Shown here in pieces: positions 10,311-45,459 of a DNA stretch of 61,202 bases. The position numbers and the translations under genes are program-made. Position 1 is the first letter of the stretch. Each line of letters opens with the position of its first letter. The stretch comes from an uncultured Clostridia bacterium (GTDB lineage Bacteria; Bacillota; Clostridia; Christensenellales; Borkfalkiaceae): the NCBI GenBank assembly GCA_944327465.1, contig CALVHH010000010.1, positions 1 to 61,202 of the forward strand, given 5' to 3'. Below the pieces are notes generated by a model. The model did not search any database. It had not been told where the DNA came from and saw only the letters and a program-made list of their open reading frames with translations.

Positions 10311-10501
10311 GAAATAAGTTTGTGCAATAACGCCGCCGATATGCAAATTGCTTGCCTTTGCGGCGGCAATGTGGTAAATTATTTGTGCCTGAATTCAAAG
10401 GTCCGCCTGAGAACTAAGGGATGAACGTGAATTTTTTTGCCTTCCCGCGTTGCGGGCGGGCAGTCTTGTTCTCTCTCGTCGTCGGCGGGGGAGGTTTTTT
10501 T

Positions 10502-10750
10502 ATGTCGGATAAGCGACTCGCCGTCATTTCGCTCATTGTCGAAGACCGCGCCTGCACCGCGGATATAAATGCGCTGCTCTCGGAGTATGCCGACTGCATA
10601 GTCGGCAGAATGGGCGTGCCGTACAGGCAGAAAAACGTGTCCGTCATCTGCGTCATTGTCGACGCCCCCGCCGAATGTATAAACGGTCTGACGGGCAAGA
10701 TAGGCATGCTCCGCGGCGTGTCGGCTAAAACGTTAATGAGCAAGCTTTAA
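10502..10750 (+). CDS. TM1266-type iron-only hydrogenase system regulator
   Basis: An 82-residue ACT/ferredoxin-fold protein. The pattern LAVISLIVEDRA, then ALLSEYADCIVGRMGVPYR (about 21-39) and the C-terminal LTGKIGMLRGVSAKTLMS match the family annotated as putative regulators of iron-only hydrogenase systems, normally beside the hydEFG maturation genes. None of those genes is in the window. GGGGGAGG lies 7 nt before the ATG at 10502; the frame is open 27 codons upstream, but that part has no family similarity. It precedes an ABC importer by 70 nt. What it senses here is unknown. Confidence 0.8.
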   Translation: MSDKRLAVISLIVEDRACTADINALLSEYADCIVGRMGVPYRQKNVSVICVIVDAPAECINGLTGKIGMLRGVSAKTLMSKL

Positions 10751-10820
10751 AAGCGTTTGCCGCAGTTAGCGGCAAGATGCATGATTTGGGTAAAATTTAT
10801 CAAACTTTAAGGAGTTTTAT

Positions 10821-11831
10821 ATGAAAAAATTTATATTGCCTGTCGCGGCGGCATGTCTTTCCGCCGCCATATTCGCCCTTTCGGGCTGCGCTCCCCAAAA
10901 GTCGCCTTCGGGCGTATCGCTCATGGGCGTTCAGCCCGCAGACGTCGGGCTGGTATCCGAGTGCGACTATTTTGTCGCCGCCGAACCGGCAGCCACCACC
11001 CGCGTCAATGCGGCGGGGCTTCATTTTGCGGGCGACATACAGCAGCTCTACGGCTCGGAGAACGGTTACCCCCAGGCTGTAGTCGTCGCAAAAAATTCCC
11101 TCATAGTCAACAATCCCCACTTTCTCAAGTCATTCCTCGCCGAAGTGGAGGAGAACGAGGAGTGGCTCAAAACCGCCTCTGCCGAAACCGTCATCTCGGC
11201 GGTGTCTTCCCACCTTCCCGAAGGTACCACGCCCACTTTCAATGCAAAAAATCTTACTTCCGAAGTCATCTCCCGCTGCGGCATACATCTCGTCTATGCC
11301 GCCGACGACAGGGAGAGGGTGGAAAGCTTCCTCAAAGAGATGTCCGATGTCGATGAACAGTCGGTGGGCAAGGTCAAAGACGAGTTCTTCTGCGAAGAGC
11401 TGGGCGACATAGTCAATCCCCCCGCAGATATCTCCGTCTACGCTCCCGACGGCGCACCCGCACTCGCGCTCGCAAAGCTCATGCACGAGGAAAACACATT
11501 CGGTCAGACTTCGGTCAGTTACAACGTCGTGCCCTCTTCCAATATCCAGGCATACGTCACCGGCGAAGATCCCGCCGCGGATATCTGCATACTTCCCCTC
11601 AACGCGGCAAGCAAACTGCTCGGCGACGGCAGCACTTATCAAATGCTCGGCACCGTCACAAACGGCAATTTGTATATCCTTTCCAAGGACGGCGCTTCGG
11701 TGACTACCGAAAACATACGCGAAGAGCTCAACGGCAAGACGATCGGCGTAATACAGCTCAACAACGTGCCCGGGCTCACTTTAAAGATAATACTCGAAAA
11801 ATACGACATCGACTACGAAGTGATAGGCTGA
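10821..11831 (+). CDS. ABC transporter substrate-binding lipoprotein, apparently circularly permuted
   Basis: A 336-residue lipoprotein with signal peptide and lipobox LSGC (Cys23). The order of the two halves is unusual. Residues about 32-195 (from VSLMGVQPADVGLV through NGYPQAVVVAKNSL, HLPEGTTPTFNAKNL to ESFLKEM) match what is normally the C-terminal half of this SsuA/NMT1-like family. Residues about 203-336 (from ISVYAPDGAPALALAKLM through GNLYILSKDG to NNVPGLTLKIILEKY) match what is normally the N-terminal half, directly after the lipobox. Total length equals an unpermuted protein. AAGGAG precedes the ATG; the permease gene follows within 2 nt. Ligand unknown; sulfonate-, taurine- or pyrimidine-like compounds are typical of relatives. 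Confidence 0.82.
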   Translation: MKKFILPVAAACLSAAIFALSGCAPQKSPSGVSLMGVQPADVGLVSECDYFVAAEPAATTRVNAAGLHFAGDIQQLYGSENGYPQAVVVAKNSLIVNNPHFLKSFLAEVEENEEWLKTASAETVISAVSSHLPEGTTPTFNAKNLTSEVISRCGIHLVYAADDRERVESFLKEMSDVDEQSVGKVKDEFFCEELGDIVNPPADISVYAPDGAPALALAKLMHEENTFGQTSVSYNVVPSSNIQAYVTGEDPAADICILPLNAASKLLGDGSTYQMLGTVTNGNLYILSKDGASVTTENIREELNGKTIGVIQLNNVPGLTLKIILEKYDIDYEVIG

Positions 11832-11832
11832 C

Positions 11833-12630
11833 GTGAATTCATTAAAGAGCATTTTAAAGAGCAATGCGCTCTGGACGCTGGCGGCGGCGTGCGTGCTGCT
11901 GCTCGCCTGGCACATTGCCTATGTCTGTATAAAGAACGACTATATCCTGCCGGGGATAGGTTCCACGCTCTCCGCGTTCGCGGCGCTGTTTGTCGATGCG
12001 CATTTCTACGCCGCGCTCGGCTCTACGCTCGCCCGTACTCTCATAAGTTTTGCGCTGTCGTTTGCGACAGGCGGGGCGTTTGCCGCGCTCGCGGCGGTCT
12101 GTCCGCCCTTCAGGGCGGCTTTTGCCTGCGTTATATCCGTCGTGCGCACGCTGCCCACCATGGCAGTAACTTTAATGCTGCTCATCTGGTCTACGCCCGG
12201 AGTGGCGCCCGGCATAGTCGCGGCGCTCGTGCTCGTACCCATGGTGTATTCGCAGTTCGCCGCCGCGATAGAGGGGGTGGACGGCGATCTTTTGGAGATG
12301 GCGCGCGTGTACCGCCTGACGCGTTCGCAGAAACTCAAAAAAATAATCCTGCCGGCGGTCGCGCCCGAAGTGCTCGCGCAGACGGGCGCTTCGCTGTCGC
12401 TCGGGCTCAAAGTCATGGTCTCGGCAGAAGTGCTCTGCTACACGCTGTCCAGCTTCGGCGGCATGATGCAGCAGGCGCGGCTGTATTCCGAAATGCCCCG
12501 CTTTGCCGCGCTCACGCTGTGCTGCATACTCATAGGGCTCGCGCTCGAGCTTGTCTCGCTCGGCATAAAGAACGCCGCCACGGCGTGGCGGAAGGGGGGT
12601 GACGGGTATGTACGTAAGGCACATAAGTAA
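11833..12630 (+). CDS. ABC transporter permease, SsuC/TauC-like
   Basis: A 265-residue inner-membrane permease with five to six hydrophobic segments. The cytoplasmic EAA-type loop (about 153-185: EMARVYRLTRSQKLKKIILP followed by a short helix) contacts the ATPase. It belongs to the binding-protein-dependent permease family used for sulfonates, taurine and thiamine precursors. The start is a GTG one base after the binding-protein stop; no better ATG is found nearby. The 3' end overlaps the ATPase gene by 23 nt, so the three genes form one importer operon. Confidence 0.9.
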   Translation: MNSLKSILKSNALWTLAAACVLLLAWHIAYVCIKNDYILPGIGSTLSAFAALFVDAHFYAALGSTLARTLISFALSFATGGAFAALAAVCPPFRAAFACVISVVRTLPTMAVTLMLLIWSTPGVAPGIVAALVLVPMVYSQFAAAIEGVDGDLLEMARVYRLTRSQKLKKIILPAVAPEVLAQTGASLSLGLKVMVSAEVLCYTLSSFGGMMQQARLYSEMPRFAALTLCCILIGLALELVSLGIKNAATAWRKGGDGYVRKAHK

Positions 12631-13258
12631 AAGTTATCCGGGGCTGCAGGTGCTCAAAGATGTCAGCCTCGATTTCGCGCCCGGCAAAGTCACCTGCATA
12701 CTCGGCGAAAGCGGCGCGGGCAAGACTACGCTTTTGAACATTCTGGCGGGACTGACGGACTGTGAGGGCGAAGTCGGTCGGGAAGAGTGTTCATACATCT
12801 TTCAGCGCCCCAGGCTCGTGCCCAACCTGACGGTATCGGGCAATCTCCGCCTCGTCTGCGGCGAAGAGGAGCGCATAACCGCCATGCTCGAACGCGTCGG
12901 GCTCGCCGACAGGGCGCTCAGCTACCCTACGTCGCTCTCGGGCGGTCAGGCGCAGCGCGTGTCCATCGCACGGGCGTTCCTCTATAAGAGCAGCGCCATC
13001 CTCATGGACGAGCCCTTCTCGTCGCTCGACCTCAGGCTCAGGGCGGACATGATGAAGGCGTTCGGCGAAATACGCGCCCTCGACGGCAGAACGGCTGTTT
13101 TTGTCACTCACGACATCGATGAAGCGCTCTATCTTTCCGACAGGGTGGTGGTGCTCTCGCACGGCGGCATAGTGTTCGACAGTCCCAACGTGCCGCCCCA
13201 AATGTGGGGCGAGGCCGTCCCTCTGCGCCGCAGGCTCATCGACGTGCTCATGGCATAG
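12608..13258 (+). CDS. ABC transporter ATP-binding protein, SsuB/TauB-like
   Basis: A 216-residue ATPase that powers the importer. Walker A GESGAGKTT (33-41), Q-loop YIFQ, signature LSGGQ (110-114), Walker B ILMDEP (about 131-136) and switch histidine THD are all present. The ATG at 12608 follows GGGGGG; an in-frame GTG at 12599 is possible. At 216 residues it is slightly shorter than usual SsuB/TauB (about 240-255), the shortening being around the helical domain. It overlaps the permease gene, and a strong terminator follows. Confidence 0.92.
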   Translation: MYVRHISKSYPGLQVLKDVSLDFAPGKVTCILGESGAGKTTLLNILAGLTDCEGEVGREECSYIFQRPRLVPNLTVSGNLRLVCGEEERITAMLERVGLADRALSYPTSLSGGQAQRVSIARAFLYKSSAILMDEPFSSLDLRLRADMMKAFGEIRALDGRTAVFVTHDIDEALYLSDRVVVLSHGGIVFDSPNVPPQMWGEAVPLRRRLIDVLMA

Positions 13259-45258: not shown

Positions 45259-45273
45259 CGTCTTGAGCAAAAT

Positions 45274-45453
45274 AAATCCGCTTATGCCGTGTTATGAAAA
45301 AGTATTAACCCGCTTCTCGCAGGTGGGTGCGCCGAAGCGGAAATTATTCGGACTTTCCGTATAAATACAGACCTTGCCTATTCCCGCGAACGCGTCGCTC
45401 CCGAAAATTAGCTGTGGATTACGAATTTCCCATACCACGCACACAGCAGACTT
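45274..45453 (-). ncRNA. ssrS: Probable 6S RNA
   Basis: A transcript of about 180 nt on the minus strand, bounded by a strong promoter and a terminator, with no credible coding frame. The 5' end (AAGTCTGCT, then GTGT) pairs with the 3' end (ACAC, bulge, AGCGGATTT) to form the closing stem. The 3' arm has CACCCACCTGCGAGAAGCGG followed by GTTAA, matching the small hairpin that borders the central bubble in 6S RNAs. Size, overall rod shape and 5' CTG-x-GTGT pattern fit Firmicute 6S RNA, which binds sigma-A RNA polymerase. Called by eye; ends are approximate. Confidence 0.6.
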
Positions 45454-45459
45454 ATATTG

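Follow-up and report, generated by a model that had tools for sequence, protein, structure and literature searches.

A substrate-binding lipoprotein gene in the window, by which we mean the whole 61,202-nucleotide stretch of DNA analysed here, from an uncultured Clostridia bacterium, encodes a protein whose two halves stand in swapped order. Alignments support reading it as a true circular permutant of SsuA/NMT1-like binding lipoproteins, and it is very probable that the orthologous locus encoding this ABC binding protein has been rotated repeatedly and independently among related genomes. The first-pass annotation had described a single permuted protein; the permutation holds, but the protein is no lone oddity, as many permuted copies exist and the rotation is recurrent.

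The binding-protein gene and its operon

The binding lipoprotein is encoded by an open reading frame of 336 amino acids (10821–11831, + strand) that starts with ATG and closes with a stop codon at 11829–11831. A Shine-Dalgarno-like AAGGAG (10809–10814, +) can be read from the sequence six bases before the ATG. The protein opens with a predicted lipoprotein signal peptide and the lipobox LSGC (10821–10889, +), whose Cys23 is at least 90% conserved across 61 aligned window-like proteins. A single base separates the stop codon from the start of an ABC importer permease (BPD_transp_1, 11833–12630, +; Pfam PF00528, E = 5.7e-14), which is followed by an ABC importer ATPase (12599–13258, +; PF00005, E = 4e-28), both in normal order. 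The gene thus has the length of one protein and ends cleanly before its permease, as initially annotated. Upstream lies a small TM1266-like open reading frame of 109 amino acids (10421–10750, +; PF21699, E = 3.5e-29, and neighbour table), which in many relatives precedes normal and permuted copies alike. A genome search found one copy of the binding-protein gene in the window's genome.

Family profiles do not recognize the window protein. It has no match to any Pfam family at E ≤ 1, and its score against the NCBIfam model SsuA_fam (E = 0.011, 15 bits) lies below the family threshold of 163.5; a linear profile cannot span a permuted chain. PF09084 or PF13379 is present in some of its relatives. 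In its context, as a lipoprotein encoded with a permease and an ATPase, the protein resembles NMT1/SsuA/ThiY-like binding proteins, and it departs from their linear segment order. Rfam searches at the gathering threshold detected no regulatory RNA next to the gene for the binding protein, either in the window or at 11 other loci. They did place a 6S RNA gene elsewhere in the window (45271–45455, −; 60.5 bits) and, at another locus (L096, 1082–1176, −), some 5 kb away from the binding-protein gene, a ZMP-ZTP riboswitch beside a purE-like gene.

Swapped blocks in the window protein

A search of 5.8 billion proteins with the window protein returned 1731 relatives, the best 120 of which were analysed. 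Seven of the 120 have the normal order and align with the window protein only as two swapped blocks: by BLAST, window residues from about 28 to 191 pair with residues 176–343 of the relatives, and those from about 197 to 336 pair with 28–172. The blocks share 46–64% identity, each with an E-value between 5e-49 and 5e-44 (computed for a database of 121 sequences), and together they cover nearly the whole protein, a pairwise result of the kind that the first-pass annotation had anticipated. The remaining 113, among them a fragment and the entry for the window itself, run collinear with the window protein and therefore have the same block order. This list favours collinear relatives because it is ranked by full-length score; a second search, with a normal-order relative (P0111) as query, gave mostly normal-order relatives among the matches listed. 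Comparison by hhalign of a profile of 61 window-like proteins with one of 57 normal-order proteins, in which one of the two blocks was reported, paired columns 34–205 of the former with 201–375 of the latter (probability 100, E = 2e-65). Judged by these sequence comparisons, the swapped-block match is far beyond chance.

Swapped-block BLAST and block profiles divide the protein into four blocks. Block B1 (residues about 32–64; 10914–11012, +) directly follows the lipobox and in normal-order relatives lies in the second half, while block B2 (residues about 65–191; 11013–11393, +) corresponds to their C-terminal end. A linker (residues about 192–203; 11394–11429, +), delimited by the gap between the BLAST blocks and by comparison of junctions across clades, joins the former C-terminus to the former N-terminus of the mature protein. 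It is followed by block A1 (residues about 204–290; 11430–11690, +), which begins with ISVYAPDGAPAL and in normal-order relatives stands after the lipobox. Block A2 (residues about 291–336; 11691–11828, +), for which junctions were used alongside BLAST and block profiles, completes the protein, and the new C-terminus sits after DYEVIG, at the point where normal relatives run on into B1. Segments of the C-terminal half had been noted directly behind the lipobox and, past a short linker, segments that normally adjoin it; the swapped alignment confirms both, with block B (about 32–191) behind Cys23 and block A (about 204–336) behind the linker.

Fold and ancestral order

The structure predicted for the window protein is confident (pLDDT 91.2, pTM 0.85), as is that of the normal-order relative P0111 (pLDDT 92.4, pTM 0.85), which agrees, at the level of a prediction, with the earlier expectation of an intact fold with new termini. 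Foldseek, which depends on chain order, gave 387 matches at E ≤ 0.001 for the normal model. The best was 3hn0 (E = 1.6e-17, TM 0.70/0.83), and the top matches also include PqqT, Thi5, TauA, and SsuA, which places the normal relative in the NMT1/SsuA/ThiY-like fold. The permuted window model yielded three matches at that threshold, all partial, with query TM values of 0.25–0.31. A contrast of 387 to 3 is as expected if the parts agree but their order differs. On these models, the binding protein has a two-lobed, NMT1/SsuA/ThiY-type fold and belongs to an ABC importer as its lipid-anchored component.

The protein in 3hn0 (BDI_1369 of Parabacteroides distasonis, deposited as a nitrate transport protein) is the closest solved relative, both by sequence and by the fold of the normal relative, and unlike the window protein it has the normal block order. 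Its residues 7–92 and 222–269 align collinearly with positions 32–116 and 280–327 of the normal profile (E = 7.3e-6 overall; single segments are weak, at E = 0.02 and 6.8). Against the window-like profile the same protein aligns in swapped order, residues 7–91 with positions 207–292 and residues 148–271 with positions 53–187 (E = 1.9e-9 overall; single segments are again weak, at 0.0008 and 0.056). Because 3hn0 fits the normal order directly and the window-like order only when swapped, we take the normal order, A1-A2-B1-B2, as ancestral and that of the window as derived, a polarity that is well supported.

Four block orders at one locus

Relative to the normal order, the order of the window, B1-B2-A1-A2, is here called T1; T2 starts at block B2 and ends with B1, and T3 starts with A2 and ends with A1. 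A match was found in 136 of 151 genomes of the window's family. Loci were fetched from 79 of the 135 other matching genomes, the better-scoring ones, which with the window makes 80 loci. With one binding-protein open reading frame counted at each, 62 are normal, 14 are T1, and 4 are T2. The permease is the next gene downstream on the same strand at 80/80 loci, and the ATPase lies behind it at 72/80. Among loci of the window's genus whose fetched stretch shows these neighbours, copies of both orders stand between the same genes: the TM1266-like one and an aconitase lie upstream, and purE (AIR carboxylase) lies downstream. Because flanking genes are shared, normal and permuted copies are positional orthologues.

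A larger set, for which 398 genomes of the family and 297 of the order were searched and which was deliberately enriched for permuted copies, comprises 184 open reading frames from 184 genomes: 102 normal, 60 T1, 21 T2, and 1 T3. Some loci without an open reading frame above the block thresholds, such as that of G472, are excluded from it. Among 61 relatives of the T3 protein, 25 are T3, 29 normal, and two T2, with a block undetected in five; the normal protein P0252 and the T3 protein P0236 match in swapped blocks at 59% and 62% identity. All four cyclic rotations of A1-A2-B1-B2 are therefore present among relatives.

Within the window's family, T1 is spread over five genera and T2 over two; beyond it, T1 reaches two further families of the order and T2 one. 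Hosts of T1 include Candidatus Coproplasma avicola, excrementipullorum, excrementavium, and excrementigallinarum, and the normal order is found in Coproplasma avistercoris and Candidatus Scatosoma pullistercoris. Coproplasma is thus a named genus with both orders, since T1 and normal species coexist within it. At 61–66% protein identity, species of Candidatus Coproplasma appear to be the nearest named hosts, and the window's genus probably is Coproplasma or adjoins it. The closest pairs of a normal and a permuted copy reach 68% identity at most, and at that distance the DNA junctions cannot be read.

Match counts indicate that the gene is usually single-copy in relatives. Six of the 136 genomes (G006, G024, G054, G058, G069, and G096) have three matches each, against the usual one or two, and may carry a second, weaker copy of the binding protein. 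One genome (G358) has identical T1 match scores in two places (L164 and L320, on contigs 23 and 29), which reflects either duplicate strain contigs or a real duplication. A T1 gene in G242 (L319) has an in-frame TAG in block A and is a pseudogene or carries a sequencing error. Two short open reading frames were considered as split genes and rejected: the one in G276 is cut by a contig end, and that in G242 by this stop codon. At one locus (L057, G097), the binding protein and the permease stand some 700 bases apart, with repeat-like stretches in between; at most loci this distance is below 100.

The order has changed repeatedly

Trees were built after the blocks of every protein had been restored to the ancestral order. 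On a careful tree of the 80 loci, nine order changes are needed, and well-supported branches force five changes for T1, two for T2, and seven for the normal label. A quick tree of 191 rows, in which one protein appears twice (P0229 lies within the open reading frame of L133) and the T3 row L156 is treated as T1, needs 14 changes and, with its root placed in a normal group, contains 14 clades made up of permuted copies alone. A careful four-state tree of 79 chosen rows, with T3 recognized and P0229 left out (P0276 and L138 in it share their last 50 residues), needs 18, and its well-supported branches force at least 11 for the normal label. All these counts pool gains with reversals. The deep branches are long and have weak support; for the deep T1/T3 rows of the 191-row tree it is 63. 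Forcing all T1 copies into a single clade lowers the log-likelihood by 237 (AU p = 4.6e-7), and a single T2 clade lowers it by 149 (p = 2.3e-7), so that both are rejected; for the five T1 rows of the window's genus taken alone, a single origin is not (p = 0.417).

The partner genes lead to a similar count. A tree of permease and ATPase, with the binding protein left out, needs 10 order changes across 76 of the 80 loci, four lacking a usable permease open reading frame. The T1 rows of G040 and G116 stand beside different normal rows in this tree and in that of the binding protein, while the T1 gene of G095 falls among normal genes of its own genus in both. G132 and G020 carry sister genes in the binding-protein tree, the former T2 and the latter normal, with 100/100 support. 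Several permuted copies nest in this way among normal copies that occupy the same locus in their own genus. For 25 permuted rows, the closest normal relatives of the two halves were compared. In 15 they come from a single genus, which for those rows points to rotation in place and not to fusion of halves with separate sources. In the other ten (L001, which is the window, with L004, L006, L012, L043, L046, L156, L161, L191, and L192), the halves disagree on the genus or cannot be judged.

T1 and T2 have thus each arisen more than once. We hold with good confidence that the order has changed seven or more times, and a number above ten is likely. Four normal proteins (P0252, P0256, P0262, and P0263) nest inside the T3 rotation (P0236–P0274) with 100/97 support in the 79-row tree, which could mean that a permuted gene reverted to the normal order or that T3 arose several times.

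Proposed function and DNA route

Because the operon, the lipobox, and conserved motifs are kept, an ordinary binding-protein function is the most likely one: the protein would very likely pass a small solute to the permease as in the ordinary working of such importers. The motifs PDGAP, GYPQA, and EPxA are invariant in 61 window-like proteins. What would change is the connection of the chain and the lobe that bears the lipid anchor, the signal peptide and lipobox staying at the front. The new termini lie in a loop, probably of the second lobe, and in T1 and T3 the anchor would be joined to that lobe. Junctions compared across T1 clades show the same loop cut with different linkers (linker lengths were taken from 102 normal, 48/61 T1, and 20/21 T2 rows). 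Separate events in a structure that tolerates few cut sites would be expected to look like this.

At the DNA level we favour tandem duplication followed by in-frame fusion and trimming, the route that had been suggested from the window alone as duplication with loss of the outer halves. That suggestion stands as the favoured route but lacks its intermediate: no double-length or half-trimmed gene occurs among the 184 open reading frames, and no remnants lie beside the gene at the 80 loci. Because no intermediate was found, we infer this route rather than observe it.

Alternative histories

A single ancestral tandem duplication (A-B-A-B), trimmed differently in each lineage, could yield all four rotations by repeated loss, and duplication is a textbook route to permutation (PMC3320104). 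However, the double-length gene would have had to persist through many normal-order lineages, and in the within-genus cases of G095, G132, and G251 until recently, when none of the 184 open reading frames holds two copies of a whole block and the 80 loci are free of remnants. We regard such a history as improbable. Fission and fusion, the other main model (PMC3320104), would have the gene split into at least two secreted pieces that were later rejoined in another order. A two-lobed fold could assemble from pieces, but among the loci read, A and B are nowhere encoded as separate genes, and this too is unlikely.

It is less likely still that one ancient permutation was followed by gene transfer, or by paralogue retention with sorting through loss. 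The spread of T1 over five genera and two further families would suit it, as would the single origin that the data allow within the window's genus. Against it stand the rejection of a single clade for T1 and for T2, the nesting of permuted copies among normal copies of the same genus and locus, and a gene that is single-copy in the window's genome and usually so in relatives; moreover, a single event cannot account for three distinct breakpoints.

An assembly or binning artefact has next to no chance of explaining the pattern: the named sources are metagenome assemblies or uncultured isolates, but the same order is kept in many samples at 43–86% identity, the 90% cluster of the window protein has 89 member sequences, one T1 copy lies on a contig of 656 kb, and neighbouring genes are never swapped. 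The last point rests on a control of half order in the partner genes, in which all 76 permeases with a usable open reading frame are in normal order, as are 71/71 ATPases with both halves detected (in two more, one half was detected). Since permeases and ATPases are never swapped, rotation does not characterize these assemblies in general. The misassembly of two tandem genes, which the first-pass annotation had named as a finding that would overturn its reading, is strongly argued against because the swapped order is conserved across many related genomes, where orthologues carry it as well.

Repeated and independent rotation in place is thus our preferred reading. Four rotations, more than ten changes, and perhaps a reversion might mark the locus as a permutation hot spot, through unusually frequent rearrangement or a selected move of the anchor, although we place this at somewhat less than an even chance.

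Relation to known permuted proteins

Natural permutation of binding proteins is already known. TpMglB-2 (Tp0684) is a permuted type I glucose-binding lipoprotein for which the designations ‘Type Ic’ and ‘Cluster Bc’ were proposed, and its authors considered that the topology is possibly an adaptation to membrane anchoring (PMC4990184). It shares with the window protein a natural permutation, a lipid anchor, and a two-lobed fold, and in TpMglB-2 the fold is intact and binding is kept (PMC4990184). Unlike the present case, its topology is described as common to one set of relatives, whereas here four rotations recur at one orthologous locus. The two are also set apart by description, TpMglB-2 being assigned to the type I class and the fold here matching NMT1/SsuA-like proteins; the top 50 Foldseek rows for P0111 include SsuA, Thi5, TauA, and PqqT and no glucose/galactose-binding protein.

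Structure comparison with CPSARST assembled a permutation family of glycine betaine- and molybdate-binding proteins and CysB (PDB entries 2b4l, 1r9l, 1sw1, 1atg, 1amf, and 1al3), with permutation found among the betaine-binding proteins themselves (PMC2395249). Circular permutation between binding proteins is common to that family and ours (PMC2395249). The pairs described there differ in being below 24% identical and recognized by structure comparison; those reported here reach 68% at the same locus. DNA methyltransferases are a further protein family rearranged by permutation, one in which duplication intermediates are documented (PMC3320104). Among the best-ranked matches in the open-licence PMC literature, none describes a single ABC binding-protein gene as permuted repeatedly, or as rotated into every block order. 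The permuted DNA methyltransferases are enzymes in several classes and not one orthologous transporter gene reordered in place.

The family also carries a warning, in that linear profiles overlook permuted proteins, as the absence of a Pfam match to the window protein illustrates. Permutation is mostly encountered between distant proteins, which makes its route, frequency, and cost hard to study. A single orthologous gene whose neighbours stay fixed, with four rotations and with normal and permuted copies of up to 68% identity, amounts to a natural experiment. It opens to testing the DNA origin of the rotations, the existence of working intermediates, and the reversibility of the order, as well as the effect that a moved anchor may have on gating and permease docking.
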